Shown here: positions 1,215 to 31,046 of the stretch, piece after piece | How positions within the stretch are numbered: the first letter of the stretch is position 1 | Layout of the letters: each line of letters starts with the position of its first letter | DNA from: a virus | IMG/VR virus record: IMGVR_UViG_3300018481_000033 | Span: 1-46,249 of that record | Direction: 5' to 3' (one strand) | Length of the DNA stretch: 46,249 bases | The notes under the pieces: model-generated | Databases searched by the model: none | What the model saw: the letters and a program-made list of their open reading frames with translations, nothing else | What the model was told of the DNA's origin: nothing | Translations under genes and position numbers: made by a program

Positions 1215-1514
1215 ATGGACACCATCGAGGCGAGCGCCGAGACGCTCATGCACCAAGCACCCAAGACCGTCGCCCTCTACCTGGAAAACGCGATCGCGGT
1301 GATCGACGCCGCCTTCGACGTGCCCGGGTACGCTGCCCAGCATCCCGCCCTGGTCGCGGCGTTCCTGGAGGCCTGCGTGCGCGACTGCGCGGCAATGACG
1401 CTCGCGGCCGCGGTACAGGGGCATGGCGAACACCTCTACAGCGCCTTCGAGATGTTCTACGAAGAGCTTCCCAGCCTCATCAAAGCCATCGGACTCATCG
1501 GATGCCCCGACTAG
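1215..1514 (+). CDS. Small helical phage protein (99 aa)
   Basis: GGAGG at about 1201-1205 precedes the ATG at 1215. The product is predicted to be almost entirely alpha-helical, with HPALVAAFLEACVRDCAAM in the middle, resembling small conserved hypothetical phage proteins. There is no signal peptide or clear membrane segment. Its last 13 bases overlap the start of the DNA polymerase gene, so the two are probably translationally coupled. The specific function is unknown. Confidence 0.7.
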   Translation: MDTIEASAETLMHQAPKTVALYLENAIAVIDAAFDVPGYAAQHPALVAAFLEACVRDCAAMTLAAAVQGHGEHLYSAFEMFYEELPSLIKAIGLIGCPD

Positions 1515-4498
1515 CGCACCCCGAGGGTTGCAGAGGCTGCGTACTGGACGAGCGCGGCGAAGGCTTCGCGCCCGCCGACGGCCCGGCCAACAGCTGGCTC
1601 CTACTGGTGGGCGAGGCGCTCGGCGTGGTCGAGGTCCTCACCGGCCGCCCGTTCATGGGCGACGCCGGCGGGATGCTGCGCCGGTTGTTGAACCTCCTGG
1701 GCTGGAAGCGCGAGGCGCTCCGCGTGCACAACGTGGTGAGCTGCCACCCGCCGAACGACTGGTTCGACGAGCGGGCGCCCTGGTACTACCCGGCGATGAA
1801 CCACTGCCCCTACCTGGAGCAGAGCTTCCAGGACGGGCCGCAGGTCGTGGTGACGATGGGACAGACCGCGCTCCGGCGGGTGCTGCACCTGGAGCACCGC
1901 AAGAAGGTCCGGGTGCAGGACTTTCACGGCACGATTCAACGCGACCCGACCGACCGCTTCTGGGTGGTGCCGACCTTCCACCCGAGCTTCCTGCAGCGGG
2001 GGGCGGTGAACCTGATCGGGACCGTGCTCTGGGATTTACAACGGGCGGAGTCTGCGCGCGACCACGGGCGGCCGCCGAGCGAGCACTCGCTGGTGGTGGA
2101 CCCGCCGGTCGAGTGGTTCAGGCGATGGGTGGACCAGGTCGTCGCCGCCCGCCGCCAGGACCCCGGCGCCTATCCGATCAGTAGTGACGTCGAGACCCCG
2201 GACAAGGCGGGCGGGCGGGACGAGGGTGAGATTACCGCGGACGACCAGAGCTATCAACTGCTCAGGCACAACGTCAGCTGCCATACGGATGAGGGCGTCA
2301 CGGTGCCGCACGCCGGCCCGTACCTCGACGAGCTGAAGCGGCTGTATGGGTCGCCCGGGCACATCTGGATGTGGAACCGGGAGTATGACTTCCCTCGGCA
2401 GGTCAGCTCGGGCCTGATGAGCGAGGCCGACAGCGTCCGGTGCGTCGACCTGATGTGGCTGTGGAAAGTCCTGCAGAGTGACGTGCCCCGGGGGCTGGGC
2501 TTTGTGGCGCCCTGGTACAGCGAGTACGGGCCCTGGAAGCACCTGGCCGACAGCGAGCCGGGGCTCTACGCGGCGATTGACGCCCTGCAGACCCACCGGG
2601 TCGGGTTCGGCATCATCAAGGACCTGCAGGCCCAGGGGATGTACCCGATCGCCATGCGGCACACGCATGAGCTGCTGACCAAGGTGCTGCGGCCCGCCCA
2701 GCTGGTGGGCGTGAAGGTCGACCGCCAGCGGCTGGTGGACTTCAAGCTGGAGCTGGCCGAGAAGGCCCGTGGCCGCCTCCAGGCGCTCGAAGCGGCGGTC
2801 CCCGAGTCCCTGGCCCCCCTGACCCCCAAGCAGGGCCTGACGCGCCCGCCAGCGGCCGACGTGCTCCATGTCAAGGCGAGCGCCTTCACCCGGAAGGGGA
2901 CCGTGCGGAAGGGCAAGCCGCTGCCCGAGATCAAGCAGGAGCTGTACACCCGGGCGATCGTGGTCGAGAAGCTCGTCCTGCGGGAGGTGCTGGTCTGCGG
3001 GAGCTGCGGCGCCCAGGAGATTCAGAAGCGCCACCGGTGCGCCGACAAGGCGTTGACGCCCGCGGTGGACGTGGCGGTGGCGACGGTGAGCCGGTGGTTC
3101 TGGCGCGAGCCGTTCAACCCGGACAGCGTGCCGCAGGTGCTCGCCTACATGAAGCACCGGAAGCACACCCCCGGGCGGGCGAAGAAGGGGCAGGCCGAGG
3201 CGACCACCAACCGCGAGACGCTGGAGCGGCTGGCGCGGACCACCAAGGACCCGTTCTACCAGGCGCTCCTCGACTACCGGGCGATCACCAAGGTCAAGGG
3301 GACCTATGTCGAGGGCACCGAGCGGCTGCTCGACGAGCAGGACCGGCTGCACCCGGTGCCGACCTTCAAGCCGAGCACCATGCGGCTGAGCTATACCGCG
3401 CCGAACATCACCAACGTGGTGGCCGACAAGGGCGGGGCCGAGGGGCTGGCGGCGGGCTTCAGGAAGTGCATCGTCGCCGAGCCCGGCTGCCGGCTGCTGG
3501 AGGTCGACTTCGCGGCGATCGAGGCGGTCCAGACCGGCTGGTGCGCCCGGGACGCGGAGTACTACCGGCTGGCGAAGCTGGGCGTGCACGCCGCGTTCGC
3601 GACCCATGTCCTGGGGAAGCCCTACGACCCGGCGGCCGATGACGTCACGCTGCGGGCGTATCTGGCGGCGGCGAAGAAGGCGCACCCGCAGGTCTACGAG
3701 CCGAGCAAGCGCTACATCCACGGGCGGAGCTACGGGCTGACCATCGCCGGCATGGTGCTGCAGTTCCCGCACCTCTTCCCGACGCACGCGGTGGCCGAGC
3801 GCTACGCCCGGATCTACGAGCGGATGGCCCCAGGCGTCGCCGCCTGGCAGCTGCAGACGCAGATCCGCGCCAGCCGCCAGCACTACCTGGGCGGGGCGGG
3901 CGATCACCCGTTCGCCTACAAGCACTGGTTCTGGAGCGTGTATAGCTACAAGCGCCTGACGGTCACGCAGTACTACCGGCTGGCGGCGAAGTTCCAGCGG
4001 CTCGGGCAGCCGGTGCCGTGCCTGGAGATCGACGGCCAGTACTTCCGGGTGAGCCTGGGCGAGGACGGCAAGCGGGTGCTGGCGTTCTACCCGCAGTCGA
4101 TTGCCGCCGGCGTGCTGAAGGAGGCGCTGCTGCGGCTGTTCGCGGAGCCCGACTCGCCAAGCTACCTGGGCGAGGTCTACTACGGGCGCACGCCGCTGCG
4201 CGCCCCGATCCACGACTCGATGCTGCTGGAGGTGCCACACAAGGCCTGGGACCGGGTGGTCGAAGTGGTGTGCATGGAGATGCAGCGGCCGGTCCTGGCG
4301 CAGCCGCTGCCCGAGAGCTGGGGGCGGGCGGGCGAGTATGTCGCGATCGGCGTGGCGGCGAAGGCCGGGGCCGACTGGGCGAGCATGGCGGAGATCCCGG
4401 TGCCGGGGTATGAGGCGGGCTGGGTGCCGGACCCGGGCGAGCCGGTGGAGGCAGAGGACGAGGACGACTGGAGCGACCTCGCCCGTGTGATTGCCTAG
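1502..4498 (+). CDS. DNA polymerase: UDG-like domain + 3'-5' exonuclease + family A polymerase
   Basis: This replicative polymerase has 998 residues. Residues about 5-180 resemble family-4 uracil-DNA glycosylase: GEALG at 37-41, TGRPFMGDAGG, HPSF at 160, and cysteines 10, 13, 81 and 102 in the spacing that binds an iron-sulphur cluster. The exonuclease has DxE (D229, E231), NxxxD (N292-D296) and YxxxD (Y356-D360), so it looks active. The polymerase has motif A DFAAIE at 669-674, motif B KRYIHGRSYG at 736-745 and motif C HDS at 904-906. A CGSCG...HRC cluster (C499, C502, H511, C513) forms an apparent zinc-ribbon insert. In motif B a histidine (H740) sits where classical enzymes have the O-helix lysine, and K736 is one turn earlier. 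The start overlaps the upstream gene and has no clear ribosome site. The length exceeds E. coli Pol I because of the UDG-like fusion. Confidence 0.92.
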   Translation: MPRLAHPEGCRGCVLDERGEGFAPADGPANSWLLLVGEALGVVEVLTGRPFMGDAGGMLRRLLNLLGWKREALRVHNVVSCHPPNDWFDERAPWYYPAMNHCPYLEQSFQDGPQVVVTMGQTALRRVLHLEHRKKVRVQDFHGTIQRDPTDRFWVVPTFHPSFLQRGAVNLIGTVLWDLQRAESARDHGRPPSEHSLVVDPPVEWFRRWVDQVVAARRQDPGAYPISSDVETPDKAGGRDEGEITADDQSYQLLRHNVSCHTDEGVTVPHAGPYLDELKRLYGSPGHIWMWNREYDFPRQVSSGLMSEADSVRCVDLMWLWKVLQSDVPRGLGFVAPWYSEYGPWKHLADSEPGLYAAIDALQTHRVGFGIIKDLQAQGMYPIAMRHTHELLTKVLRPAQLVGVKVDRQRLVDFKLELAEKARGRLQALEAAVPESLAPLTPKQGLTRPPAADVLHVKASAFTRKGTVRKGKPLPEIKQELYTRAIVVEKLVLREVLVCGSCGAQEIQKRHRCADKALTPAVDVAVATVSRWFWREPFNPDSVPQVLAYMKHRKHTPGRAKKGQAEATTNRETLERLARTTKDPFYQALLDYRAITKVKGTYVEGTERLLDEQDRLHPVPTFKPSTMRLSYTAPNITNVVADKGGAEGLAAGFRKCIVAEPGCRLLEVDFAAIEAVQTGWCARDAEYYRLAKLGVHAAFATHVLGKPYDPAADDVTLRAYLAAAKKAHPQVYEPSKRYIHGRSYGLTIAGMVLQFPHLFPTHAVAERYARIYERMAPGVAAWQLQTQIRASRQHYLGGAGDHPFAYKHWFWSVYSYKRLTVTQYYRLAAKFQRLGQPVPCLEIDGQYFRVSLGEDGKRVLAFYPQSIAAGVLKEALLRLFAEPDSPSYLGEVYYGRTPLRAPIHDSMLLEVPHKAWDRVVEVVCMEMQRPVLAQPLPESWGRAGEYVAIGVAAKAGADWASMAEIPVPGYEAGWVPDPGEPVEAEDEDDWSDLARVIA

Positions 4499-4501
4499 GA
4501 G

Positions 4502-4529
4502 GCGGTTATGCTAGAGCTAGCGGAACCGC
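4502..4529. terminator. Hairpin at the convergent junction
   Basis: GCGGTT (502-507 of this kilobase) pairs with AACCGC (524-529), and an inner GCTA/TAGC stem closes a GAGC loop. It sits between the end of the rightward polymerase gene (4498) and the end of the leftward late genes (4517), where a bidirectional terminator would be expected. There is no U-tract on either side, so intrinsic termination is uncertain. Confidence 0.4.
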
Positions 4530-4699
4530 GGCAGGGGGATGTCGCCGACGAAGAGCTGGAGGAGCCAGAGGACCAGGATGAGCACGACGACCACCCGGAT
4601 CACCACCCGGATCGGCGGGCTCAGCGGAATGTAGGTTTCCACGAGATAGAGGACGACGCCGACGATGACGAGCAGGACGAGTAAGCCAATCAAGCCCAT
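4517..4699 (-). CDS. Small two-helix membrane protein (60 aa)
   Basis: I chose the ATG at 4699 because GAGGGAG lies just upstream. The product is MGLIGLLVLLVIVGVV..., with hydrophobic segments at about residues 2-22 and 32-53 joined by TYIPLSPPIR. It closely resembles the short Thivi_2564-type membrane proteins often found in phages. It is the last late gene and follows the effector and transglycosylase genes. A holin-like or envelope role is possible, but no lysis function is shown by the sequence. Confidence 0.75.
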   Translation of the reverse strand: MGLIGLLVLLVIVGVVLYLVETYIPLSPPIRVVIRVVVVLILVLWLLQLFVGDIPLPRFR

Positions 4700-4845: not shown

Positions 4846-6246
4846 TCACGACGGGCCACCGAGGATAGTCGGCGGGCGGGGCGGCGGGGCGCCGGCCTGC
4901 GAGTCGACGCCCAGCTTCGCCATCACGGCGGCGACCATCGCCGGCGTCCAGCCCTTCGAGCGCAGCACCCGCTTCAAGTTGTCGACGTCCATCATCGCGC
5001 CGGGCGCGTCGAGGCCGACGTGCTTGAGGATGTCCTGCACGCCCCCCTCCCACGGCTCGCCCTTACTCGCGCGCGAGCCTTCCCAGAAGCGGCCGAAGCG
5101 CGGGTTCGCCGGGACCCCCGGCTCGATCGTCTCCAGTGCGTGAATCAGCGCCTGCTCCAGCCGGTCGTAGGCTTCGTCGTTGGTGACCTTGCGCCCGATC
5201 TGCTTGCTCATGCGCTCGGCGAGCGGGCCCAGGTGCGGCTGCAACGCGTTCCCCTCCGCGCCCATGCCGTGCAGGACGTGCGTGTCGATCGGGACCGCCG
5301 GCTCGCCGCGGCCGAAGCGGTCCATCGCGTTGACCTTCTTCCCGGAGAGTGGCTGCATGTGCGTCGCGATGTTCATGTTCTGCCACTTGGAGCCGGGCAC
5401 ATGGATCACCTCGCCCAGGATCTGGCGCGTGTTCTCCTTGGTGAACTGGTGCCCGGGGTTGTTGAGCACCTCGGCGAAGGCGGCGACCGCCTCGCGCGTG
5501 TTCTTGACCACCTTCGTCTGCGGGGACATCGCCGCCCAGATGCGTGTGTAGATGTCTGCCGCTTCCTGCCAGCCGCCGAAGGCCGCCGCCAGCTCCGGTC
5601 CGGTGATCGGGTTCCAGTTCGACTGGCGCGGCAGGCCAGCGCCGAGCCCAGTGAGGTCGGCCATCCGGTCGAGCACTTCGTTCTTCAGCCGGTGGACACC
5701 GATGACGCCCTCGGGCGGGAGGATCATGTCGGCGATCGAGCCGAGGCGCCGGCCGGCGATCTGCGACTCGTTGAACGCCTGCCCGGCGCGCGTGCGGCCG
5801 GGGATGATGATCGAGGGGGCGAGCCCCCCGCCACCGCGCGTCGCCGCCAGCGCCTCGTTCGCGCCCTTGCCGACCGTCATCGCCGTGTCGATGACCCCCT
5901 CGCCCATCTTCTTCGCCGTCCGCAGCCCGGCGCTCGCCACCTTGCCGCCAGGGATCACCCCGGCGATCGCCCCTAGGGTGTCGAAGGGGCCCATCTCCTC
6001 ACCCGCGGGCGGGATGCCGATCGTGTTCTCCAGGATCGTATCCGCCAGCCACTGCCGCCAGCTCGGGGCCGGCTGCGCCCGGATGGTGGCCGGCCGGCGG
6101 CCCGCCGCGATCTCGGCCTCGGCGGCGGCCTTGGCCTGGGCGCGCGCGCGTGCGGCGGTGGCCGCCTCGTGCTCGGGGGAGCGCGGGTAGACGGTGAGCG
6201 GCGGGCGGGGCGGCGGCGGGGCGGGGGGGGTGGATTGGTCGGCCAT
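4846..6246 (-). CDS. Polyvalent-type protein: shared N-terminal module + DUF7178/HhH-GPD-like domain
   Basis: The 466-residue product starts with a Pro-rich tail and an Ala-rich helix. Residues about 53-140 form a module shared with the next gene (PSW, GP, PGGKVASAGLR, GVIDTAM, GANEALAATR). The C-terminal half (about 205-410) has AAMSPQTK at 238-245, SGKKVNAM at 301-308 and VPIDTH at 318-323. This fits phage DUF7178 proteins, whose helix-rich fold I believe resembles HhH-GPD DNA glycosylases. D321 would be the candidate catalytic residue. The product may act on DNA after delivery into the cell, or may only be structural. It is 12 bases from its paired neighbour, so the two are presumably cotranscribed. 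Confidence 0.65.
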   Translation of the reverse strand: MADQSTPPAPPPPRPPLTVYPRSPEHEAATAARARAQAKAAAEAEIAAGRRPATIRAQPAPSWRQWLADTILENTIGIPPAGEEMGPFDTLGAIAGVIPGGKVASAGLRTAKKMGEGVIDTAMTVGKGANEALAATRGGGGLAPSIIIPGRTRAGQAFNESQIAGRRLGSIADMILPPEGVIGVHRLKNEVLDRMADLTGLGAGLPRQSNWNPITGPELAAAFGGWQEAADIYTRIWAAMSPQTKVVKNTREAVAAFAEVLNNPGHQFTKENTRQILGEVIHVPGSKWQNMNIATHMQPLSGKKVNAMDRFGRGEPAVPIDTHVLHGMGAEGNALQPHLGPLAERMSKQIGRKVTNDEAYDRLEQALIHALETIEPGVPANPRFGRFWEGSRASKGEPWEGGVQDILKHVGLDAPGAMMDVDNLKRVLRSKGWTPAMVAAVMAKLGVDSQAGAPPPRPPTILGGPS

Positions 6247-6258
6247 GGCTGAGGGCTC

Positions 6259-7683
6259 CTACTGCGGCGGACCGAGCACGCCCGGCACGGGGGGCGGGGT
6301 GCCGACCTGGTTCTGGGGGCGCTGACGCTGGCGGGCCGCGGCGCTGCCGGCGAGGGCGGCAGGCGGGAGCAGGCCGTACTTGCGGTAGATGTCGATCAGC
6401 GAGTCTTCGTACATCACGTAGTTGTGGGTGCGGCGCAGGGCGGCGCGCAGCTCGTTCTGCGCCTCCCGGATCTGGTCTTTCAGCCATTCCGTGTCGTAGG
6501 TGTTGCGCCGGTTCCCCTGTGCGATGTTCGCCTCGGTGGTCGCCAGCTCCTGGCGCCAGTGATCGAGCACGCCTTGCGCGTGCTTGGGGTCGGGGAGGCC
6601 GCGCGAGCCTTGGTCGAGATACCGCAGCCCTGGAATGCCCGCCTCACGTAGCTGCTGGGTAATCTCCGCCGACCGCTGCTGCGCGCCCAGCATCGCATCA
6701 CCCCCCTGCAGCGCGCGATACGCCGCGCCACCACTGGGATCGCGTTTCAGGAAATCCCCCTGGGCGCGCAGCGAGCGAGCGGCTCTCGGGTTGGTCGCGA
6801 GCATCCGCTCCATCGCCTCGATAACCTCGGGGCTTTGCTGGGACAGCGGTGTGTCCCAGTCGAGCAGTTCGGCGGGGTCGACCTGGAGGTTGACTTCGTA
6901 CATGTGCGCGCCCGGATGCGTGCGGAGCCCATCCCGCTCCGCAAGCTCCAACCACGACAGCTCGTCCTTCAGCCTGCGGATGGCCCCCGCCCCGCCCGGC
7001 TCGGCCCGCTCGGACAGCTCGCGGTGAAGGTCCGCGCGCACATGGTCGACGATCGCCCGTTCATCCGCGCGGGGGAAGCGCGCCCGCTTATCCGCCAACC
7101 GCCGTATCAGACGCGGCTCCGGGTCCAGCACGGGCGACCAGTACGGCACCGCACGAGGGACCCCGCCGATCTCGACGGTGGGCTTCGTGAACTCCTTGAA
7201 GTACTGGTCGGCGACCTCTTCCTTGCCACCGAAGTAGAGCCCGTGACTGTAGGCCTGCGCGCCCTGCCCTGTGCCCACCTTGGAGATGTCGAACTTGTCG
7301 AAGTTGTGGGGGGAGGCGTGAAACGCGGTAATGCCCCCCGAGCGGGTGGCGGCGAGCGCCTCATTGCCGGCGCGGCCAGCCGCCATCGCCGTGTCGATCA
7401 CCGTCTCGCCGACCTCCTTCCCCGCGCGTAGCCCGGCGCCGGCGACCCGCCCGCCGGGGACCAGCCCCCCGAGCGTGGTCACCGCCTCCATCGGGCCGAC
7501 CTCCCGCATCGGGTCAGCCGGGGCGCCGGTGATCCATTCGAGGATCCGCGACGACCAGGAGGGTGGCGGCGTCGCGCGGATCTGGGTCGGGCCGCGGACG
7601 CCGCCCCGCTGGAGGCGCTCCTTGGCGGCGCGCTCGGCGGCCTGGGTGGTGGCGGCGGTGCGGTCGAACCAGTCCTGTGGCAT
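6259..7683 (-). CDS. Polyvalent-type protein: shared N-terminal module + ADP-ribosyltransferase-like domain
   Basis: In this 474-residue product, residues about 33-117 match the module of the downstream neighbour (PPPSW, VPGGRVAGAGLR, ETVIDTAMAAG, GNEALAATR). A domain starting FHASPHNFDKFD (H122) and continuing GTGQGAQAYSHGLYFG (137-152) is the signature of the ART-PolyVal family, ADP-ribosyltransferases embedded in phage and conjugative-element polyvalent proteins. The remainder is long, helical and charged. Family knowledge suggests modification of host targets soon after DNA entry. The target is unknown. Its place directly after a transglycosylase-bearing internal protein supports packaging in the virion, which is inference. 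Confidence 0.75.
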   Translation of the reverse strand: MPQDWFDRTAATTQAAERAAKERLQRGGVRGPTQIRATPPPSWSSRILEWITGAPADPMREVGPMEAVTTLGGLVPGGRVAGAGLRAGKEVGETVIDTAMAAGRAGNEALAATRSGGITAFHASPHNFDKFDISKVGTGQGAQAYSHGLYFGGKEEVADQYFKEFTKPTVEIGGVPRAVPYWSPVLDPEPRLIRRLADKRARFPRADERAIVDHVRADLHRELSERAEPGGAGAIRRLKDELSWLELAERDGLRTHPGAHMYEVNLQVDPAELLDWDTPLSQQSPEVIEAMERMLATNPRAARSLRAQGDFLKRDPSGGAAYRALQGGDAMLGAQQRSAEITQQLREAGIPGLRYLDQGSRGLPDPKHAQGVLDHWRQELATTEANIAQGNRRNTYDTEWLKDQIREAQNELRAALRRTHNYVMYEDSLIDIYRKYGLLPPAALAGSAAARQRQRPQNQVGTPPPVPGVLGPPQ

Positions 7684-13058: not shown

Positions 13059-13877
13059 CTATCCGCCCCAGCCGCCGCCACGCACCCGGGACGACTCGAA
13101 GAAGTTCGTCGGGTCTACCGTGGGCGTGTGCTGCACGGGCACGGGTGGCTTGTAGATGGTCGGATCGTAGGTGCCGCCCCAGGCCGTGTTCTGTTTGTTC
13201 GAGAGGGGCGCCTTCGACGTCCCCTTGTAGATGTCCCCGCCCGCGTTAATCAGGTCACCCGCCAGCCCGCCCCAGACCTTCGCCGCCTGCTCACCCTGCT
13301 GGTTCTCGTAGTTGCGCTGCTGCACGCCCTCGCCGCGCATCCCAGTCATGTACTGCGCGTAGAGGTTCCCGGCGTTACTGGCGAGCCCCGTGCCGCTCTG
13401 CATGAACTGGTTGCCCAGGCCGGTCAGGGCCGTAGCCGCCCCCGGCTGGACGCCGGTCACCAGCCCCGCGAGCTTGCTCGCCCGCTCCCGGCCCAGCTCA
13501 CCCATCTGCTGGTCGCGCACCGCGCCGCGCATCCCGACCCGGTCGACGTTGCGCTCGGCGCCCCGGTAGACGTCGGTGATCTGCGCCATCTGCGGGGCGA
13601 TGGCGTTGGCGGTGGCGGCGCGGTCGCCGGACATCAGCGTCTGGTAGTAGTTGGCGGGGCCCTGCAGGAGCCGCTGCCCCTGGCCCATCATTTGGTTGCC
13701 CTGACCGGCCAACCGATTGGCCTGTCCCGAGAGCCCAGAGATGGCGGCGGCTTCCTCGGGGCTGCGGACGACGCCTTCCTTCTTGGCCTTGTTCTGGGCG
13801 CGCTTGCCAGCGATGCCGCCCACGACGGCGGAGACACCGGAGGCGATCATCGGGATGAACGGAATGATCGCGGGCAT
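13059..13877 (-). CDS. Small internal virion-type protein (272 aa)
   Basis: The N-terminus (MPAIIPFIPMIASGVSAVVGGIAGKRAQ) has a short hydrophobic helix that could insert into a membrane. Next come helical Gln/Gly-rich repeats with QGNQMMGQGQRLLQGP, and a Gly/Pro-rich tail. This plan is common among the smaller ejection proteins of short-tailed phages, analogous to T7 gp14. That is an assignment by character and position, not detected homology. The start directly abuts the end of the acetyltransferase-like gene. Confidence 0.6.
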   Translation of the reverse strand: MPAIIPFIPMIASGVSAVVGGIAGKRAQNKAKKEGVVRSPEEAAAISGLSGQANRLAGQGNQMMGQGQRLLQGPANYYQTLMSGDRAATANAIAPQMAQITDVYRGAERNVDRVGMRGAVRDQQMGELGRERASKLAGLVTGVQPGAATALTGLGNQFMQSGTGLASNAGNLYAQYMTGMRGEGVQQRNYENQQGEQAAKVWGGLAGDLINAGGDIYKGTSKAPLSNKQNTAWGGTYDPTIYKPPVPVQHTPTVDPTNFFESSRVRGGGWGG

Positions 13878-14311
13878 CAGGCAGCTCCCTCAGGCGGCGT
13901 GGACGGGGGCGCGGACAGGTCGAGGAAACACACGTCGGTCGGCAGCCGCTGGAAGCCCGCCTTGATCGCCATGTTGAGCACCTCGGGGTCCTGCACCAGC
14001 GTGAAGCTGTGGAGCACACCCAGCTCGCGCAGCATCGCCTTCATGCCCCGGAGGAGCTTGGCGGCGACCGCGGTGGCGCGCCGGTAGTCGGGCGCGACCC
14101 ACAGGCCGTCGAGGTGCACGGTGGTCAGCGCCGCCCAGACGCCGACGATGGTCCCGTCGGGGGTCTCGGCGACCAGGATGGCCGCGTAGCGCGGGTCGGG
14201 CACGCCGTAGCGTGCGGCGAAGGGCAGGTCCGCCAGCCGGTCGTACTCCTCTGGCGGGAGCTGCCGAACCGTCGCGGGCGCCAGCGCTGTGGCGGTGTCG
14301 GTGTCGTTCAT
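13877..14311 (-). CDS. GNAT-type acetyltransferase (144 aa)
   Basis: The protein has the GNAT order of a strand (GTIVGVWAAL), then VHLDGLWVAPDYRR and a helix VAAKLLRGMKAMLRELGV. A final strand-helix-strand (FTLVQDPEVLNMAIKAGFQRL) matches the C-terminal part of small phage acetyltransferases. The acetyl-CoA loop lacks the classical glycines (RRATAVAA), so activity is not assured. ATGA overlap with the preceding gene indicates coupling. Such genes often sit among phage structural genes and may modify virion or host proteins. The substrate is unknown. Confidence 0.75.
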   Translation of the reverse strand: MNDTDTATALAPATVRQLPPEEYDRLADLPFAARYGVPDPRYAAILVAETPDGTIVGVWAALTTVHLDGLWVAPDYRRATAVAAKLLRGMKAMLRELGVLHSFTLVQDPEVLNMAIKAGFQRLPTDVCFLDLSAPPSTPPEGAA

Positions 14312-18680: not shown

Positions 18681-18838
18681 CACTCACCCCCGGTCGTGTT
18701 CGCCGTCGGCGTCATCACATCCTCGTCGGTGATTACCTGGGGGACGCACTCCGGGCAGACACAGACCGCTCGTACCACCGTGTCGTCGGGCACCTCGTTC
18801 GAGACCGACTTGCCACAGAACCAGCAGTAGAGACGCAT
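18680..18838 (-). CDS. 52-residue zinc-ribbon protein
   Basis: The translation MRLYCWFCGKSV ... VCVCPECVPQV contains two CxxC pairs, the classic four-cysteine zinc ribbon. It is linked to both neighbours: its ATG overlaps the upstream adaptor stop (ATGA) and its TGA overlaps the nozzle start (TGATG). This tight coupling and the cysteine pattern argue that it is real despite its size. It may be a small nucleic-acid or protein-binding factor. The function is unknown. Confidence 0.7.
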   Translation of the reverse strand: MRLYCWFCGKSVSNEVPDDTVVRAVCVCPECVPQVITDEDVMTPTANTTGGE

Positions 18839-19473
18839 CAGCTCCAGCCTTCCAGGATGATCGCCGCCGCCGTGCGGGTGAGCGCGTAGCGGCGGTCACA
18901 GTAGTTGGCGCGCTCCGGGTCGAGCAGCCGCCCGACCTTGCGGAGGAGCGTGCCGAGCGCGGCGTACTTGATGCCGGGGGTGAACGCCTCGTCGACCGGG
19001 AGGTCGGTGCCGGGCAGGTCGCCGGTGACCAGCGGCGGCACCTGGATGTAGAGCAGTTCGAGTACGCCGGCGGCCGCGGGGGTCGGCACCAGGCGGAGCG
19101 TCAGCGTGGATTGATCGAGGTCCGCGTAGCCGAGCGGCAGGCCGGCGGTGGTCTCCCAGCCAGGCAGGGCGAGGTCACCCTCGAAGCTGTCGACCGGGCC
19201 GAGCGGCGTGCGCGTGTTGTCGGCGGCGCGCCAGACCAGCGAGGCGGTGGCGAGCCAGTCGTCGGGCAACGTGACCACGGTCGCAAGCGCCGCGAGCGCG
19301 ATCTCGGTGCGGGCCACCTGCAGGTGCGTGTCGCGGCCGAGCGCGCGGATGGCGCCGTTGACCGCGTCGAGCACCTCCTCGCGCGTCCAGATGAGCGAGG
19401 GCCAGGTGTCGCCGCCGTCGGGTGGTTCGATCAGGACGTACTGCAGCTCGGTCAGCAGCTCACGGTCGATCAT
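18838..19473 (-). CDS. Head-tail adaptor-like protein (211 aa)
   Basis: The protein begins with helices that include WTREEVLDAVNGAIRALGRD, then has a beta-rich centre (VVTLPDDWL, WRAADNTRTPLGPV), and ends with helices and the segment YAALGTLLRKVGRLLDPERA. This helix-beta-helix order, with a Trp-Thr-x-x-Glu start, is what I associate with SU10-type adaptor proteins that form the ring below the portal. A second protein of similar plan is encoded just upstream (19482-20234) and a third at 30302-31033. Confidence 0.6.
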   Translation of the reverse strand: MIDRELLTELQYVLIEPPDGGDTWPSLIWTREEVLDAVNGAIRALGRDTHLQVARTEIALAALATVVTLPDDWLATASLVWRAADNTRTPLGPVDSFEGDLALPGWETTAGLPLGYADLDQSTLTLRLVPTPAAAGVLELLYIQVPPLVTGDLPGTDLPVDEAFTPGIKYAALGTLLRKVGRLLDPERANYCDRRYALTRTAAAIILEGWS

Positions 19474-20261: not shown

Positions 20262-20279
20262 CGCCGGGCAAGATCCCCC
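20262..20279 (-). promoter_or_regulatory. GGGGGATCTTGCCCGGCG element, site S5
   Basis: This exact 18-base word (minus strand) is also found at 22453-22470 and 25354-25371. Here it directly follows the stop of the gene ending at 20279 and ends about 28 bases before a GTG start. Candidate late promoter, processing site or recombination junction. Confidence 0.5.
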
Positions 20280-21145
20280 TAGCCGATTGGGAAGGTGACC
20301 GGGCAGGCAGGTGGGCGGGGCGGCGTGGTCACCGGCGGAAGCTCCCCGGAACAGGCATTCATCTTGATGGCGGCCGCATTGCCCGGGAGATACGACACCG
20401 GCGCCGCCGCGTCGTCGATGACGACTTCCACCAAGGAGCTGATGTGATCGGTGAACGCCCCCACGCCGATCTTCGCGTGGTGGAGGAAGCCCACATGATT
20501 GATGCCCGTGCGCTCGATCTGGAGATGACAGCTCACGGGATCCGTACCCGCCGCATACCGGAGCCAATAGTGTTTCGTTGAGGTGGGATAGAAGACCCCG
20601 CCAACCAGGCCACCCAAACACTCGAAGGATTGCGTCGTCGTGTGCGTCCCCGCTAAGACCGACACATTGTTGACGAGGAACTCGTAGGTGATCGAGGCGT
20701 GGGTCGGAAACGAAAAGCGGAACTGGAGCGCGTGGATCCTGCCGTCCCGGACGAAGACGCCCGGCGCCGACGTCCCAATGACCAGCGTTCCACCCGTCGG
20801 ACTGTTGGCTCGGTAAAACGTGAGCGACCCGTCCACATTGAGTTGCAAGACCGAGAGAAAACTCCGATTCGAGCTGCGCCCGGCTACCCCATCCTTACAG
20901 TTGAACTCGGCGAGGTTTCGGGAAAAATCTTCGCCACTGACGTACAAGTACCCGTACTGCCAGCGAATCGTCCCTTCGTGTAATTCCGTGAGGTACGTCG
21001 CGGCGGCGAGCCGCGCCGTGCTGCCCCGTGAACAGGTGAGGGCATTCAGTCGATCAATCCCCCAACCCGGAATGAGGGTGACGGTGCCTGTCAGCACTTC
21101 AAAGAAGGCTAACGACTCCATCCGCGAGGAATAGATCACCGCCAT
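20279..21145 (-). CDS. Lectin-like (LamG/ConA-type) virion protein (288 aa)
   Basis: The start MAVIYSSRMES at 21145 has GGGGGACAC just upstream. The body is beta-rich with a jelly-roll signature: VDGSLTFYRANSPTGGTLV, then DGRIHALQFRFSF and ITYEFLVNNVSVLAG. This resembles the two neighbouring proteins at 23077-24180 and 24192-25313. The C-terminus ends in PPACPVTFPIG, a tag related to those of nearby genes. Base composition is visibly less GC-rich than that of its neighbours, suggesting recent acquisition. A surface decoration or receptor/polysaccharide-binding role is inferred. Confidence 0.6.
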   Translation of the reverse strand: MAVIYSSRMESLAFFEVLTGTVTLIPGWGIDRLNALTCSRGSTARLAAATYLTELHEGTIRWQYGYLYVSGEDFSRNLAEFNCKDGVAGRSSNRSFLSVLQLNVDGSLTFYRANSPTGGTLVIGTSAPGVFVRDGRIHALQFRFSFPTHASITYEFLVNNVSVLAGTHTTTQSFECLGGLVGGVFYPTSTKHYWLRYAAGTDPVSCHLQIERTGINHVGFLHHAKIGVGAFTDHISSLVEVVIDDAAAPVSYLPGNAAAIKMNACSGELPPVTTPPRPPACPVTFPIG

Positions 21146-21153
21146 GTGTCCCC

Positions 21154-22425
21154 CTAGTCGTTGGGGTCGATCGGGAAGTCGACCGGACAGAACCGCGGCG
21201 GGTGGACGATGATGATCGTCGGCCCCCGCAGGGCAAGGCCCCAATGGAAGCCGTTACTGACCGCGTTGTTGAACGGGGTCGCCTGGACCGTGATCGCGTC
21301 GCCGGACGCGAAGTCGACGTCGGCCTGCACCTGCCCCGTGACCTCCATATCCTGGATGGTGAGCGTGATCGGCGTGTCGGTGCCCGACCGGCGCAGCATG
21401 TAGACGGTGCCGCGGCCGGGGCTGGGCGGGCCGGCGCGGCGGACATACAGCCCCGCGGCACGCAGCCCCGCCGGGCCGATGTGCGCCTCCCCGTGGGATT
21501 CGGTGGTGACGAGCTGGTCGCAGCGGGGCCACTTCCAGTCGGGGCCGTCGGAGCGGATGGCGTCGTTGCTGCCGCCGCACAGCATGTACATCCCAGCGGT
21601 CGTCGGGGTGAACGCCACGCTCGCCGCGACGTGCGCGAGCGCGGCGGGCCCCGGGCTGCCGGTGCGGGCGAGGACGAGGTCGACCAGGTCGGTCAGGGCG
21701 AGCGGCAGGCTGAACGCGGAGAAGGCGTGGATGGCCGGGTCGGGGAGCGTGCAGGCGGTGTCGACGGTGCCGCCGGTCCCGTCCTGCGTCACGCCGTTCT
21801 TGCGAACCCACGCCACCCACGCCCCGCCCCCTGGGCCCGCCGCGAAGGTCTTCAGGTCCAGCCGCGTGATCGCGCCGGGGGCCGCGCAGATCGAGTAGGT
21901 GTTGCTCTGCACGGGGCCGGGGTCGGAGCCGTAGGACATCCACTCGCCGTTGCCGAGCGCCCCGCCAATCCCCCGCTTGCCGACCGAGGGGACAGACCCG
22001 CCCGTCGTATACGCCGTGATCCCGTAGGAGGCCACGGCGCCCTCGAACTCCAGGCAGGTACTGAAGTGGACGAGACCAGGAAAGTTCTGCTGTGTGCCCG
22101 CGATCCGATAGCAGACGTCATCGCCGGCCGCGACGGCGACCGCATCGCCCGTGTTGGCGGCCAGCGCGGCGCCGGCGGCGAGCGACACGGTCAACGCCGT
22201 CGCGACGCCGTTGACCAGCAGCGTCGCCGTGAGGGCCGGATGCGGCACGTTGCAGCCGATGACCAGGTGGCGGAACGTCCCCGCGACCGACCAGGGGTGC
22301 TTGGCGGCAGCGGCACTGAAGGTCACCGCATACGCCGCCTCCCCGAACCCGCCCGTGACGGCGAGGTGCGAGACCGACGCGCCGTAGAACACCCCGTGAC
22401 TGAGGTGCGGAATGATCTGGATCAC
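21154..22425 (-). CDS. Beta-rich virion protein with two similar halves (423 aa)
   Basis: A GTG at 22425 is the only reasonable in-frame start after the preceding in-frame TAG. No ribosome site is seen, and site S4 lies 37 bases upstream. Both halves look like beta-sandwiches rich in Ala, Gly and Thr (ATLLVNGVATALTVSL in one, PITLTIQDMEVTGQVQADV in the other). The C-terminus ends FCPVDFPIDPND, a tag shared with adjacent genes. It sits in a cassette of lectin-like proteins, so a role on the virion surface or fibre is likely. Confidence 0.55.
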   Translation of the reverse strand: MIQIIPHLSHGVFYGASVSHLAVTGGFGEAAYAVTFSAAAAKHPWSVAGTFRHLVIGCNVPHPALTATLLVNGVATALTVSLAAGAALAANTGDAVAVAAGDDVCYRIAGTQQNFPGLVHFSTCLEFEGAVASYGITAYTTGGSVPSVGKRGIGGALGNGEWMSYGSDPGPVQSNTYSICAAPGAITRLDLKTFAAGPGGGAWVAWVRKNGVTQDGTGGTVDTACTLPDPAIHAFSAFSLPLALTDLVDLVLARTGSPGPAALAHVAASVAFTPTTAGMYMLCGGSNDAIRSDGPDWKWPRCDQLVTTESHGEAHIGPAGLRAAGLYVRRAGPPSPGRGTVYMLRRSGTDTPITLTIQDMEVTGQVQADVDFASGDAITVQATPFNNAVSNGFHWGLALRGPTIIIVHPPRFCPVDFPIDPND

Positions 22426-22470: not shown

Positions 22471-23067
22471 CTACTCGACATCGGGGTCGATCGGCAGGAC
22501 GCCCGGGCAGGCGCTGGTGCGCGGCGGGCGGGTGGTCGGCGGGCGCCTAGTCCACAGCTCGACGATCGCCTGCGTGGTGTGCACCACCGCGCGCTGCCCG
22601 CCCCAGACCTCGACGATCGCATGGGTGACGCGCGCCGGGACGGGCGGCACGGTCCACAGTTCGACGGCGACCTGGGTGGCGCGCAGGGGGATGGGCGTCC
22701 AGGTCCACAGCTCAATCGCGACCTGGGTGGCGCGGGTGGCGGCGGGAGCGGCGGACCAGGCTTCGACCGCGAGCTGGGTGACCCGCAGCGCCGTCTCCGG
22801 CGGGGACGTCGACAGCAGCTCGACGACCGCCTGCGTCACGGCGGCGGGGGTGGCCGCCCCGACGGTGGGCGTGAGTAGCTCGACGACGCTCTGTGTGGCG
22901 CGCGCCGCGGCGAGCGGCCGGCTGATCGTTTCGGTGAGCGCCTGGGTGACGCGCGCGGCCGCGAGGGGCTGGGTGAGCGTCTCGACGACCGCCTGGGTGA
23001 CGCGCCCGTCGGCCCGCGCAAGGCTCAGGACCTCGACGACCGCCTGGGTGACGCGCCCGTCGGCCAT
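22471..23067 (-). CDS. Tandem-repeat protein, about ten RVTQAVVE units (198 aa)
   Basis: Nearly the whole protein is built from about ten units of 15-21 residues with the core R(V/A)TQ(A/V)(V/A)VE(L/V)(L/W). Examples are RVTQAVVEVL, RVTQALTETI, RATQVAIELW and HTTQAIVELW. Late units favour tryptophan after the core and early ones leucine. Each unit should give one beta-strand, so a solenoid or beta-stack is plausible. The end TSACPGVLPIDPDVE carries the CPxx(F/L)PIDP tag of its neighbours. Similar RVTQ or RVSQ repeats occur in other phage proteins of unknown role. A fibre or surface function is inferred from location. Confidence 0.65.
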   Translation of the reverse strand: MADGRVTQAVVEVLSLARADGRVTQAVVETLTQPLAAARVTQALTETISRPLAAARATQSVVELLTPTVGAATPAAVTQAVVELLSTSPPETALRVTQLAVEAWSAAPAATRATQVAIELWTWTPIPLRATQVAVELWTVPPVPARVTHAIVEVWGGQRAVVHTTQAIVELWTRRPPTTRPPRTSACPGVLPIDPDVE

Positions 23068-23076
23068 CCCAGGACT

Positions 23077-24180
23077 CTACGAGGTCTTGCGGTAGCCGAA
23101 CTCCGCGGCGTTGAAGTCGGCCTCGATCCACGCCGCGCCGGTGCCAGGGTTGGTCTGGACGATCTGCAGACCGTAGGCGTAGCTGGTCGAGGGAGAGAAG
23201 TTCGCGCCTGGGTAGTCGACACCGCCGTGGCGAATCACGGGCGCGACGGTACACACACCCGCGTCCATCTTCTTCAGGGCGAGGCAGTGCTGCACGCCGT
23301 AGATCGTCGCCCCCGGGAGCGGCGCATCCTGCATGACGAAGGTGTCAGTCGCGCCCACCGTCGCCGTCGTGTTGTGGTCGGTGTCGTCGTTGGGCGCGGC
23401 CTCGTCGACGGTCAGCGCGTTATCACTGCCGGTGGAGGGCGTCCACGCGGACGAGGCGCCTTCGGCGGTGGGAAAGCGCGCATCGACGCGCACGTCCCCG
23501 AGCGGGCCATTCCACGGTGCCGGGCCGGAGCCGTCGAGCAGATAGACGTCGTCGAAATCCCAGGTATTCGGTGTGGCCGTCGACACGAGTTTCCCCAGGA
23601 CGACCTCGTCCCACGTCGACGAGGCGGTGGCGCGCGTATTCTGGTTCGTCAACGCAATCCACGACACGCCATTGACCAGCACGTCGACCGTCCCCACCGT
23701 GGGGTCGATCACCGCGACCAGCTCGATGTAGTACGTCACGCCTGCCGCCAACGCTAGCGCGCTGGGAGCACCCAGGAGTGTGGTCCCCCGATAGACACTC
23801 AGCGTCCCGTTGGTGTTCGGACGCAGCACGAGCTGGTTGGCCGAGGCTTGCCGAATCAGGGCGAGGGAGGTGCCCCCACTGGAGGTTTTGGACGTGTTCG
23901 GGTCGAAGCTCGTATTGACCTGCAGCTGGGTAAAGCTCCCGGCGCTCTGGGTGAACGAAAACCCGCACACACAGGTATTGCCGACCGCCGGCACGACCTT
24001 GCCGAACGCCCGACAATCCGAGTTACCCGCGGCCTGCCGCAGCCCTGCCGACGCCCGGCGGCCCGCGCCCGCGGTAATCACGGGGCTCACCGAGCCGCCC
24101 GCCGTGTAGATCGACGACCACTTCTCGACCAAATCCACGGTCGCGTAGTGGTCGAAGCTATCCATGAAGAGCAACGCCAT
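23077..24180 (-). CDS. Lectin-like (LamG/ConA-type) virion protein (367 aa)
   Basis: GAGGCGGAGACCG precedes the ATG at 24180. The start MALLFMDSFDHYATVD introduces a beta-sandwich with GTLSVYRGTTLLGAPS, YYIELVAVIDPTVGTVDVLV and WDFDDVYLLDGSGPAPW, the strand pattern of LamG/ConA-like folds. The second half has GATDTFVMQDAPLPGATIYG and ends AEFGYRKTS. It is clearly paralogous to the upstream neighbour, which has LLFMDGQAHY, IDPTVGTFEI and GQFGVIKIT at matching points. It is likely exposed on the virion and may bind glycans. Confidence 0.7.
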   Translation of the reverse strand: MALLFMDSFDHYATVDLVEKWSSIYTAGGSVSPVITAGAGRRASAGLRQAAGNSDCRAFGKVVPAVGNTCVCGFSFTQSAGSFTQLQVNTSFDPNTSKTSSGGTSLALIRQASANQLVLRPNTNGTLSVYRGTTLLGAPSALALAAGVTYYIELVAVIDPTVGTVDVLVNGVSWIALTNQNTRATASSTWDEVVLGKLVSTATPNTWDFDDVYLLDGSGPAPWNGPLGDVRVDARFPTAEGASSAWTPSTGSDNALTVDEAAPNDDTDHNTTATVGATDTFVMQDAPLPGATIYGVQHCLALKKMDAGVCTVAPVIRHGGVDYPGANFSPSTSYAYGLQIVQTNPGTGAAWIEADFNAAEFGYRKTS

Positions 24181-24191
24181 CGGTCTCCGCC

Positions 24192-25313
24192 TCAGGTGAT
24201 CTTGATGACGCCGAACTGCCCGGCGTTGACTTCCGCGTCGGTGAACTTCGCCATCGTCGCCGGGTTGAGGTCGTAGGGCTGCGTGAGGTAGCGGTCGTAG
24301 GTGATGCTGGAGATGCCCTGGGTCGGGCCGACGTAGTCGGTACCGCCCTGGTGCACGACCGGCGCGATCGCCGCGCCGCCATCACTGTCCTTGCGAGCCA
24401 GGATGCAGGCGTGCGCGCCCTTGACGAGAGTGCCTGGCGGGAGGTCCTCGAAGTGATAGAGGTCGGTGATGCCGGGGGCCGTCGTGGTCACGTAGGTGGC
24501 GTCGTCGTCGGGCGCGGGGTCGTCGTTGGTCGCGTCCCAGTTGGCGCCCACGTTCGGCGTCCAGCCGGTGGCGCTGCCCGGGCCGTTGGGCAGGATGGTC
24601 TCGACGATCCCGTCGCCGAGGAAGTCGCTGACGTCGTCGGGGTCGGCAGCGACGCGGTCGGCGAGGTAGAGGTCACACATCCGCAGCACGACCACGTCGC
24701 CGCTGCCCGGCCGCGCCGCGAGCAGGTTCACGCCGGTCCAGATGCCAATCTCCTCACCGTTGCGACTGCCCTTCGTGTTGCCGGTGAACTGCATGATCGG
24801 GACGCCGTTGGCGCGGATCTCGAAGGTGCCGACGGTCGGGTCGATGAACCACTTGCATTCCAGGAAGCACCAGGCGCCGGACTGCAGCCCTTCGATCGAC
24901 TCGGCGAGCTTGTCGAAGCTGCTGGTGAACCGCGAGCGCCAGAGACTCAACGTCCCCGTCGGGTTGAGATAGAGGCCGACGTGCGCCGCCGACCCTTCCA
25001 TCAGCGTGAAGAACTCCTCGCCACTCGGCATGACGCCCGCGCCGCTCTCGCCCACTTCCTGCAGGTCGTCGACCTTGACCGCGAAGCCGCAGACGCCACT
25101 CGTGGTGGGCGTCCACGGACCCAGGCGCGTCATCAGCGGTGAGATGCCGAGGTGCCCGGCATTGTTCGCGCCGACCGTGACGCGCTTGATGCAGTTGCCA
25201 AACCGCCCTTCCGCGACGACGGACCACGTACAGCCTTCCACGGTCACGACCGAGTACTTCATCCCGATCCGCGTCGAGTCGTAGTGCGCCTGCCCGTCCA
25301 TGAACAGCAGCAT
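24192..25313 (-). CDS. Lectin-like (LamG/ConA-type) virion protein (373 aa)
   Basis: The start MLLFMDGQAHYDS is preceded by GAGGGGTGGACCTGAG. It shares layout and many motifs with the next gene: TGTLSLWRSRFTS, FLECKWFIDPTVGTFEIRA, MCDLYLADRVAADPDD, and a second half with DLYHFEDLPPGTLVKGAHAC and an FGVIKIT ending. Two adjacent paralogs suggest gene duplication followed by divergence, as in receptor-binding or decoration proteins. The function is inferred from fold and context. Confidence 0.7.
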   Translation of the reverse strand: MLLFMDGQAHYDSTRIGMKYSVVTVEGCTWSVVAEGRFGNCIKRVTVGANNAGHLGISPLMTRLGPWTPTTSGVCGFAVKVDDLQEVGESGAGVMPSGEEFFTLMEGSAAHVGLYLNPTGTLSLWRSRFTSSFDKLAESIEGLQSGAWCFLECKWFIDPTVGTFEIRANGVPIMQFTGNTKGSRNGEEIGIWTGVNLLAARPGSGDVVVLRMCDLYLADRVAADPDDVSDFLGDGIVETILPNGPGSATGWTPNVGANWDATNDDPAPDDDATYVTTTAPGITDLYHFEDLPPGTLVKGAHACILARKDSDGGAAIAPVVHQGGTDYVGPTQGISSITYDRYLTQPYDLNPATMAKFTDAEVNAGQFGVIKIT

Positions 25314-25314: not shown

Positions 25315-25614
25315 TCAGGTCCACCCCTCGTCCGAGTCTGGGTCGAAGAACGGCGCCGGGCAAGATCCCCCCGGCACGCTCACCGCCGGCTCCAGCACCG
25401 CCAGCACCGCCGGCAGCGGCTCGCAGGCCCGCGCCGCGGCGTAGGTCAGCTCCGCCCAGGTGAGGTCCTCCGCCGCGAGCGTGCCGTCGTCGATCGCGCA
25501 CACCACGCCCGGCGCGACGAAGTCGGGCAGGGTCGCGGCGAGGCGGCCGGTGCCCAGGCGCAGGATGGCCAGGCGCGCGGGCAGCTGGGCGGGGTCGCTG
25601 CCGGTGATCGCCAT
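25315..25614 (-). CDS. Small protein with CPxxFxDPD tail (99 aa)
   Basis: A short helical and beta body (RLAILRLGTGRLAATLPDFV, LTWAELTYAAARACEPLP) ends GGSCPAPFFDPDSDEGWT. The tail resembles the C-terminal tags of the three tagged genes further downstream. The 18-base S3 element lies within the codons for GGSCPA. The start at 25614 follows the tiny membrane-peptide gene closely, and no ribosome site is evident. I recognise no family. It may be a small virion or fibre accessory protein. Confidence 0.5.
   Translation of the reverse strand: MAITGSDPAQLPARLAILRLGTGRLAATLPDFVAPGVVCAIDDGTLAAEDLTWAELTYAAARACEPLPAVLAVLEPAVSVPGGSCPAPFFDPDSDEGWT
25354..25371 (-). promoter_or_regulatory. GGGGGATCTTGCCCGGCG element, site S3
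   Basis: Third exact copy of the 18-base word. Unlike S4 and S5 it lies inside coding sequence, near the 3' end of the 99-residue gene and about 50 bases upstream of the next start (25313). Confidence 0.4.
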
Positions 25615-25993: not shown

Positions 25994-28900
25994 CTAGCTG
26001 GCCGACCGATATGTGACCGAGCCGTGAAGGTACGTGCCAGAGGCATAGTTATTCGCGTGCATTTGGGTGAGGCCACCGCCGGGACCAGCGGTCGCGTACA
26101 GGTACATGCGGAAACTCCAGGGAAACAACAAGCCCACGATGGTGGAAACCGCCACCGCCAGCCCACCCCAATACATCGTGCAGGACCAGTACCCACCATC
26201 TGCTTGATGCGGGAAATCGTCAATCACCAACACGTCGTCCGTCGCACCCTTGGCCGCAATGCCAATGGAGAAGCTGACGGTGACCATGCGACCCACCTTG
26301 GTCCAAGTGCCCGACCGCGTGTTGTAGGTCTGCCCGGTTTCCCCGGCGGCACCGCGCAAGTACGGCAACCACTCGCCATTGGTGCCCAGACGCGCATCAG
26401 GGACAGTCCCACTAGTCAGATATGAAGCGTTCAGTGGAGTTGTATTTAAGCCTGCATCCGCCTGCACCGTTGCATAGGAACGAACGGCATTCGTGAATGT
26501 ATTCCCGCTGAGATGGGTCTCACCATTGAAATAGTTTGTACCGCTGAAGTTATTTCCATTTCTAAGTGCAACATTGGCTGACAGGCGCGCATCGGGGACA
26601 TGCCCGGCGATCAGCGAACCGGCGATAGACAGATTGCCTGCTCGGTCAACAACGAGCAAAGAGCCAACAGTGTTCTCATAGATGTGAAACCCATTGGCGT
26701 AGCTGATTAACCGGAAAGCCGCGTTGTAGCTCAGTTCATGCAGGTTAATCCCCGCCGTGCCTGTGCCTTGAAAGACGTGCTCGCCGCCTGAGAATGTATT
26801 CGCTGGGCTCTTCAACGCGACGTTCGCGGGTAGCCGAGCATCAGGAATCGTGCCCCCCGTGAGGTACGAGGCGTTCAACGGTGTCGCGCCAAGTCCAGCG
26901 GCGGTCAGGACTCCGTTTCTGGCGATGGTGACGTAGCCCGTCGCGACCGTGATGGCGTCATTGACCGCTTGAATGAACAGGTCACCCGGCCCGGCCTGAT
27001 GCACGAGAATTTCCCACAACCCCTGATCGACCGCGACGCCCGTGTTGTGCAACTGCAGACGCGGGTACGGCGTGTTCGTCAGTCGGACGTTGCCGGTCAC
27101 GTTCAGGCCGCCGGCGTCGATGCGCGCGATCGGCGTCGGGCTGAAGACCGTCCCCGCCGCGCCGGGACTCGGGCCGCACGCGAACACGATGGACCCCGGT
27201 GCCGCCTGCACGGCGCTGTACGCACTGTTCGCGAGGTTCTTCCAGCCGACGCCCCCGTGATGCACGACGTTGTGCATCAAGTACGTGCCGTTGAGTGCTT
27301 CCCCCGGCCACGACTGAATCACGCCCCGGTCGCCGAACTGCGCGTAGCCTTGCGCCTGCGGCACGTTGATCGCGGGGAGGCCGTAGTTCGCCCCGTTGAC
27401 GACGACCGAATTACCGACGACCAGCGAGTTCGCCACGCTCATCTGGTTATTCGCTTTGCTGAACGACGCGATGTTGACCCAGCCGCTTTCCACGTCGTCC
27501 TGCCCGTACACGATCAGGTTCTGCGACTGCGACATCAGCCGGTACTGCGACGTGTTCGCCGGTTGCGTCGTGTCGAGCAGATAGAGACTCGCGTTCGCGT
27601 TGCGGATGTACTGCGGCTGCGAGAAGACGTTGTTGACGTTCAGCCACGCATTGTTCAGCAGGGCATCGCTGCCGCCGGGTTGGTGCGTCGCCTGGTGCGG
27701 GACCAGCGCCGCGGGGTCGCCCGGGTCGCCCTTCGGGCCTTCTGGGCCTGGCACGCCTTGGATGCCCTGCGGCCCCTGGATGCCCTGGACGCCTTGCGAC
27801 CCGGGGACACCGGGTTGCCCTTCGGGTCCGGTCGCGCCGGTCTCCCCGATGGGGCCTTCCGGGCCGGTCGCCCCAGGCTCGCCGGGGTCGCCGGGCTCGC
27901 CTTGGATGCCCTGCGGACCCTGAGGACCTTCCGGGCCGGGCGGGCCTTGCGCGCCAGGCGGGCCCTGCTCCCCGACCGGGCCTTCGGTCAGGACCAGCAC
28001 CGTGATGCGCGTGTTGTGCGACATCGAGCCGTTGCCGCCAGGCCCGTCCTGCGAGAGGAAGGTGACCTGGACGATGAACCAGTCGCTCATCTCCACGACG
28101 CCGTCGATCCGCCACTCCTGGTGGGTGGTGGCGAGGTCGGTGTCCTGAATCACCAGCCGGGACGCCGGCGGGGTCATCCCGAAGAGCACATGCGCGTCGA
28201 AGCCGTCGGTGGTGAGCCAGTCGACGTAGAGCGCGGTCGCCTCCTGCTGGACGACAGCGTTCCAGCGGAGCATCCCGGTGCCGGGGTCCTGCGACTGCTG
28301 CGACTGGGTGTCCGCCCGGTAGGGGAAGGCGCTGGACGAGGGGGCCGACTCGCCTTGCGGGCCCTCGGGGCCGACCTCGCCCTGGATCCCCTGGATCCCC
28401 TGGATGCCCTGGATGCCCTGGGGACCCTCGGGCCCGGTGGCCCCGACGGCGCCGGGCACGCCCTGGATCCCCTGCGGGCCGAGCGGGCCGGTGGGGCCTT
28501 CGGGGCCGCCGGGGCCAGGCACGCCTTGCGTCCCCTGCGGTCCCAGGGGGCCGACCGGGCCGATGGGGCCCGTCGGGCCGGTGGGGCCAATGGGGCCGGT
28601 CGGGCCGATCGGACCGGTGTCGCCCTCTGAGCCGGTCGCGCCCGTCGGCCCCTGGAGCCCCTGGGGGCCTTCTGGGCCGGTTGGACCGGTGGGGCCCAGG
28701 GGACCGGCGGGGCCTTCGGGTCCGGGGTCGCCTGCGGGCCCTGGCGACCCGGGGGCCCCCTCCGCGCCGGCGGGGCCGACCTCGCCAGGCTCACCCTGGG
28801 CGCCGGCCGGTCCGGGTAGCCCGGTGGGGCCTGGGGGGCCAGTCGCGCCGGTGGGGCCAACCGGGCCGAGGTCCCCCTCCGGGCCTGGGACGCCCTGGGG

Positions 28901-31033: not shown

Positions 31034-31046
31034 GCGCGTGTCGGGA

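Follow-up and report, generated by a model that had tools for sequence, protein, structure and literature searches.

Two adjacent genes that close the ejection-gene run of a short-tailed phage encode proteins, P0001 and P0002, that share an N-terminal module (M1) and continue into unrelated C-terminal domains. M1 is conserved between the two proteins, the slot that they fill is occupied by different proteins in related viruses, and N- and C-terminal parts recombine between these viruses. Together these observations suggest a slot for virion cargo in which N-terminal adaptors and effectors can be exchanged, and the products of which would be packaged and ejected and would act enzymatically in the host. 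We assign a probability of about one half to the reading that P0001 and P0002 are accessory virion cargo, in which M1 works as an adaptor for docking or ejection, with the C-terminal domains as effectors directed against the host.

Genomic setting of the gene pair

The window analyzed here is a whole 46,249-base IMG/VR virus record, which derives from a bacterial virus of the short-tailed, podovirus type. P0001 (4846-6246, minus strand; 466 residues) and P0002 (6259-7683, minus strand; 474 residues) are the last genes of the ejection-gene run and come after P0003 (7687-11061, minus strand; 1124 residues), a probable ejection protein that bears an SLT transglycosylase domain (PF01464 in Pfam, E=1e-6) and is encoded directly upstream of P0002. 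P0003 and P0002 are separated by 3 nt, and P0002 and P0001 by 12 nt, which upholds the placement of the pair behind a transglycosylase-bearing internal protein in the preliminary description. The remainder of the probable ejection-protein run extends upstream of P0003 (11066-14311, minus strand) and includes a GNAT-like gene (13877-14311); in Sulfitobacter phage phiGT1, the corresponding position holds a RimL-like acetyltransferase whose annotation relates it to P22 gp14 and T7 IVPA. A portal-type protein (36631-38775, minus strand) was assigned by position, gene order and homology to the gene that precedes the ART slot in relatives, without a family match.

On its other side, the slot is bounded by a convergent UDG-DNA polymerase A gene (1502-4498, plus strand), which also served as bait for finding relatives and combines a uracil-DNA-glycosylase-superfamily domain and a following DNA polymerase A domain within a single ORF. 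Between this gene and P0001 lies a gene for a 60-residue membrane protein of the Thivi_2564 family (4517-4699, minus strand; NF041949, E=4e-13).

P0001 and P0002 share an N-terminal module

M1 spans residues about 50-140 of P0001 (5827-6099, minus strand) and about 29-117 of P0002 (7333-7599, minus strand), and is thus set about 30-50 residues inside the chain. BLASTP aligned residues 30-140 of P0001 with residues 9-117 of P0002 at 49% identity (E=3e-22), the local alignment of the two modules scored Z=30.6 against shuffles, and M1 alone searched against the ORF set of the window gave E of about 1e-20. The core, PGG(K/R)VAxAGLR...GExVIDTAM...NEALAATR, reaches 65% identity over the final 46 residues. 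It is a cationic amphipathic segment with a moment of about 0.57 and has no transmembrane stretch. Similarity between the two proteins ends at ATRxGG, where unrelated domains start that cannot be aligned with each other. Both the common module and the unrelatedness of the downstream parts, as first described, are therefore confirmed.

At the DNA level, the two copies of M1 are 64% identical, versus 35% with shuffled codons. Ka/Ks values of 0.43/0.71 overall and 0.35/0.81 in the core indicate an old duplication under amino-acid constraint, and the synonymous divergence led us to reject recent gene conversion between P0001 and P0002.

The preliminary description also named recurrence of the module with many different effector domains as support for its reading; within the reach of our searches this did not hold, as M1 was found on P0001 and P0002 only. 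No further called protein of the window or its relatives carried it, and searches with M1 alone of IMG/VR, GTDB genomes, INPHARED phages (E<=10) and 18 whole related records returned nothing significant; weak matches to coliphage internal virion proteins (E about 1-10) were taken as chance. Absence from the collections is not proven by these scans, because they relied on short back-translated patterns from two sequences only, which are insensitive to divergent copies, and may have left out near copies of the window. Indeed, the same pattern scan of IMG/VR with P0001 and P0003 returned nothing, though relatives of both surfaced via polA. Within the limits of these searches, recurrence with many effector domains describes the type of arrangement and not M1 itself. 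AlphaFold models of P0001 and P0002 had mean pLDDT values of 44 and 52, with the module mostly below 35, and fold searches with them were uninformative.

The C-terminal domains of P0002 and P0001

The C-terminal part of P0002 (residues about 118-438; 6370-7332, minus strand) is of the ART-PolyVal type and probably an ADP-ribosyltransferase, an assignment made through its relatives. P0002 itself matched no Pfam model at E<=1, PF18760 (ART-PolyVal) included. Its homologue L002 (E=1e-27) scores 32.3 bits to PF18760, above the 31.2 cut-off, and L004, L009, L037 and L039 score 21-30 bits, under that cut-off. In the ART-PolyVal active site, a histidine in strand 1, a tyrosine in strand 2 and an aspartate in strand 5 come together (Iyer et al., PMC5512222). 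The H122, Y150 and E426 or D427 residues of P0002 fit this H-Y-D site: H122 and Y150 are invariant, the acidic position lies in the NYVMYED segment and is D in relatives, and the active-site residues are kept across diverse phages. The ART-PolyVal-like label proposed initially is thus supported by the matches of relatives and by the retained residues, but not by a Pfam match of P0002 itself.

The C-terminal domain of P0001 (residues 171-466; 4849-5736, minus strand) is kept in the L006, L010 and L014 relatives (E=7e-47 to 3e-26). All four homologues share an invariant K304 and D321 (spacing 17-18) and the histidine that follows, H323. HhH-GPD DNA glycosylases carry a motif with a catalytic Lys and Asp. 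The motif order of P0001, A.S..T.V.KN..EA then K-x16/17-D-x-H, resembles that of DUF7178 and of HhH-GPD enzymes, which makes a DUF7178/HhH-GPD-like domain plausible by motif only. The label given at the outset is retained in this qualified form: neither P0001 nor its L006, L010 and L014 homologues matched DUF7178 (PF23802) in Pfam at E<=1, no other relevant Pfam model matched P0001, a profile comparison of the P0001 family with four DUF7178 members yielded P=0.08, and profile and structure searches lent the HhH-GPD reading no support. Searches of P0001 and P0002 against NCBIfam and PADLOC, profile searches of the PDB, and searches for the P0001 family in GTDB genomes and phages found nothing.

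A variable slot behind the transglycosylase gene

Using the polymerase gene, we found 15 related viral contigs (57-79% identity in the polymerase); all are metagenomic and possibly partial, and their genes were called with a home-made codon-usage caller. The slot after the transglycosylase gene is filled in eight of the 15 (L006, L009, L010, L011, L012, L014, L016 and L018) and empty in five (L007, L008, L013, L017 and L019, of which L007 and L008 look like one virus), and falls outside the contig in L015 and L020. Its occupants are P0001-like proteins in L006, L010 and L014, a DUF7178 protein (40.5 bits) in L018, an 800-residue protein with a DUF7178 match below cut-off in L016, and a large multi-region polyvalent protein of 1287 residues with an ART domain at its end in L009. 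The closely related L011 and L012 encode 950-1000-residue homologues of the L009 protein that lack the ART domain. Because relatives carry different proteins at this position, or none, the slot genes are dispensable and exchanged.

A different N-terminal module, M2, is common to five slot proteins (L010, L018, L009, L011 and L012; pairwise Z 6-29) and stands before P0001-like, DUF7178 and large polyvalent C-terminal regions. The idea of a module combined with exchangeable effectors, as originally put forward, is accordingly borne out in part, by the differing slot contents and by M2, but not by M1, which was found nowhere else in the collections scanned. The slot proteins of L006, L014 and L016 carry neither M1 or M2 nor M3, a third module described below, and comparisons of M1 with M2 and M3 using hhalign and shuffled alignments detected no homology. 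A similarity between P0002 and the N-terminus of the L006 protein (Z=4.8) was not relied on, as P0001 gave no like score.

A second slot behind the portal gene

ART proteins follow a portal-type gene in the L006 and L014 genomes, directly at L037:851-2044 and with one small gene between at L039:13797-15188, and these two ART proteins have M3 in common (53% identity). In the L007 genome, the portal-type gene is followed by a gene for a 912-residue protein that matches DUF7178 weakly (15.7 bits). In the window, and in the other relatives whose portal region could be read, only small or unrelated genes stand at this position, among them HNH-like or lipoprotein-like genes in other relatives. Three of these genes (L060:307-762, L061:5359-5814 and L062:296-721) encode small lipoprotein-like proteins with a signal-like N-terminus followed by Cys, and are another variable occupant of the second slot.

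Comparable positions are filled in distant phages. An ART gene lies between terminase-like and portal-like genes in L002, as read from ORFs, and between portal and scaffold in phiGT1 (phiGT1_5); Roseobacter phage CRP-738 has a DUF7178 protein (gp40) after the portal; and phage LS06-2018-MD07 encodes one giant chain with ART-like and DUF7178-like regions near an annotated internal virion protein.

The head region also encodes a strongly kept unnamed family of small Gly/Pro-rich proteins (34069-34497 in the window, L037:85-486, L039:19223-19627), present in all relatives, which start with LDxPPPSPTxM and end with GGGIDRGxAGxGxI.

Proposed mechanism and alternatives

We propose that P0001 and P0002 are made alongside the ejection (internal virion) proteins of a podovirus-type phage, are taken up into the assembling head and exit with the DNA. 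M1 would dock the cargo to the ejection core or the portal, or serve as an ejection adaptor. Once delivered, the ART domain of P0002 would modify host proteins, as T4 Alt does, and the P0001 domain, whose Lys...Asp-x-His arrangement recalls HhH-GPD glycosylases, would probably act on DNA, which is the weakest step of the scheme. The pair itself would have arisen by duplication of one cargo gene and subsequent replacement of a C-terminal domain.

Several features of the sequences point to a cargo role. The 3- and 12-nt spacing and the gene order behind P0003 count in its favor, and M1 is under amino-acid constraint despite the differing domains attached to it. Variation of the slot occupants among relatives, with M2 preceding different C-terminal regions, argues in the same direction, as do ART and DUF7178-like proteins at head-gene positions in relatives and distant phages, the active-site residues kept in P0002 and the LS06-2018-MD07 chain, which places both domain types near an internal virion protein. 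Precedent is provided by injected T4 Alt, the predicted packaging of polyvalent proteins (PMC5512222) and the DarB signal (PMC9024508). The adaptor role of M1 is weakened by its apparent presence on no other cargo protein in the collections scanned and by its location about 30-50 residues inside the chain, whereas the short DarB signal is at the very N-terminus.

The main rival to the adaptor role accepts that P0001 and P0002 are virion cargo and takes M1 as the leftover N-terminus of a duplicated cargo gene, a linker or oligomerization segment without a targeting role; packaging would then be set by the Pro-rich C-terminal tails described below, by the first residues or by other parts that bind ejection proteins. 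We regard this as possible, at odds well below even. Tandem duplication predicts the confinement of M1 to two adjacent genes, three slot proteins (L006, L014 and L016) have none of the three modules, and Pro-rich tails are spread more widely among slot and SLT proteins. However, the M1 core evolves more slowly at amino acids than at synonymous sites, relatives swap N-terminal modules independently of C-terminal domains, which simple duplication does not give, and the tails are of low complexity and not exclusive to virion proteins.

It is improbable that P0001 and P0002 are late proteins that act in the producing cell, for instance in host take-over or superinfection exclusion, and merely adjoin the ejection genes. 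Accessory slots between operons often hold genes that were inserted independently, and other relatives have HNH-like or lipoprotein-like genes in their second slot, but P0002 and P0001 are directly coupled to the transglycosylase gene, several unrelated phages encode the same domain types among their head or ejection genes, and LS06-2018-MD07 combines both in a single giant chain encoded in the internal-protein region. That the two proteins are structural or ejection proteins with inactive enzyme-like folds, M1 being part of the ejection conduit, strikes us as very unlikely: although they sit in the ejection-gene run and neither matches a curated family model, several relatives lack proteins of this type, which are hence not essential for assembly, and diverse phages retain the ART active-site residues.

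The cargo reading with M1 as adaptor can be extended to both slots, and we advance this extension only tentatively. It would comprise one cargo bay behind the transglycosylase gene and another behind the portal gene, both served by the virus-specific adaptors M1, M2 and M3 and loaded with cassette-swapped effectors, an ADP-ribosyltransferase and a glycosylase-like enzyme being co-injected. A docking role common to M1, M2 and M3 is drawn by analogy because no homology is detectable among them. If this scheme is true, one adaptor would load several unrelated enzymes, as a phage counterpart of polymorphic-toxin delivery.

Comparison with known systems

The polyvalent proteins of phages and conjugative elements, for which packaging and injection were predicted, are encoded by late or virion genes and exchange their domains (Iyer et al. 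2017, PMC5512222). The window pair resembles them in its H-Y-D-type ART domain, its late or virion gene position directly behind the SLT protein, domain exchange, and predicted packaging and injection. Polyvalent proteins string their domains along one long chain, whereas the two effectors of the window are on separate short genes that share only M1, each protein having one recognizable C-terminal domain besides the module; OP947163 contains a fused form and L009 a large multi-region one. T4 Alt, a head-packaged and injected ADP-ribosyltransferase of the R-S-E clade (PMC5512222), is a functional model for P0002, whose ART belongs to a different, H-Y-acidic, clade.

In phage P1, 30 residues at the N-terminus of DarB are enough to target it to the capsid, and BLAST showed no consensus N-terminus among Dar proteins (PMC9024508). 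Like Dar proteins, P0001 and P0002 would be accessory head cargo delivered to the host, with an N-terminal signal as in DarB; unlike them, the two have in common an N-terminal module that is longer and internal. Packaging was shown in P1, a myovirus, whereas the window represents a podovirus-type phage for which packaging is predicted. The MuF polymorphic toxins of temperate phages combine a constant N-terminal part with a variable C-terminal effector, including ARTs (PMC5576092). The likeness lies in a constant part thought to set delivery, a variable effector and proposed delivery with DNA. The window pair differs in lying behind an ejection transglycosylase, in having no recognized immunity gene and in lacking a MuF domain, for which P0001 and P0002 gave no match in Pfam or PHROGs.

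Virion-delivered polyvalent effectors, N-terminal targeting of DarB and N-constant, C-variable MuF toxins are thus already published; new here are the presence of a single module on two unrelated effectors encoded in tandem by one phage, and an anatomy, in this group of viruses, of two slots with N/C swapping. The sorting of large effectors into phage heads is understood in very few instances; for P1 DarB, a signal was mapped (PMC9024508). The P0001/P0002 pair offers a clean test of sorting by a common adaptor and, if M1-type modules sort cargo, such modules would flag further cargo proteins in uncharacterized phages.

C-terminal tails and tail-region proteins

P0001 and P0002 end in Pro-rich tails (SQAGAPPPRPPTILGGPS, 4849-4902, and QVGTPPPVPGVLGPPQ, 6262-6309, both minus strand). 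Tails of this PPPxP type are present in 9/12 slot proteins and 12/13 SLT proteins, that is, in 21/25 versus 14/224 others, a comparison among mutually related proteins in which enrichment P values overstate independence. We rejected the tail as a specific virion tag, as it is enriched yet not exclusive; an ATPase-like protein of relatives has one.

Four otherwise unrelated neighbors in the tail region (20279-21145, 21154-22425, 22471-23067 and 25315-25614, minus strand) have similar Pro-rich, Cys-Pro ends (ACPVTFPIG, FCPVDFPIDPND, ACPGVLPIDPD and SCPAPFFDPD), also seen in relatives (L036:10890-13238, L040:7276-8181); a shared C-terminal tag is possible. Two separate genes of the window (18838-19473 and 30302-31126) match the SU10 adaptor family, a pair that recalls the two paralogous tubular tail A proteins of phiGT1 (PMC10386132). 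Tandem paralogues at 23077-24180 and 24192-25313 (minus strand) both match phrog_2448, a family without assigned function, and a 1222-residue collagen-like tail fiber protein with several collagen repeat stretches is encoded at 25994-29662 (minus strand).
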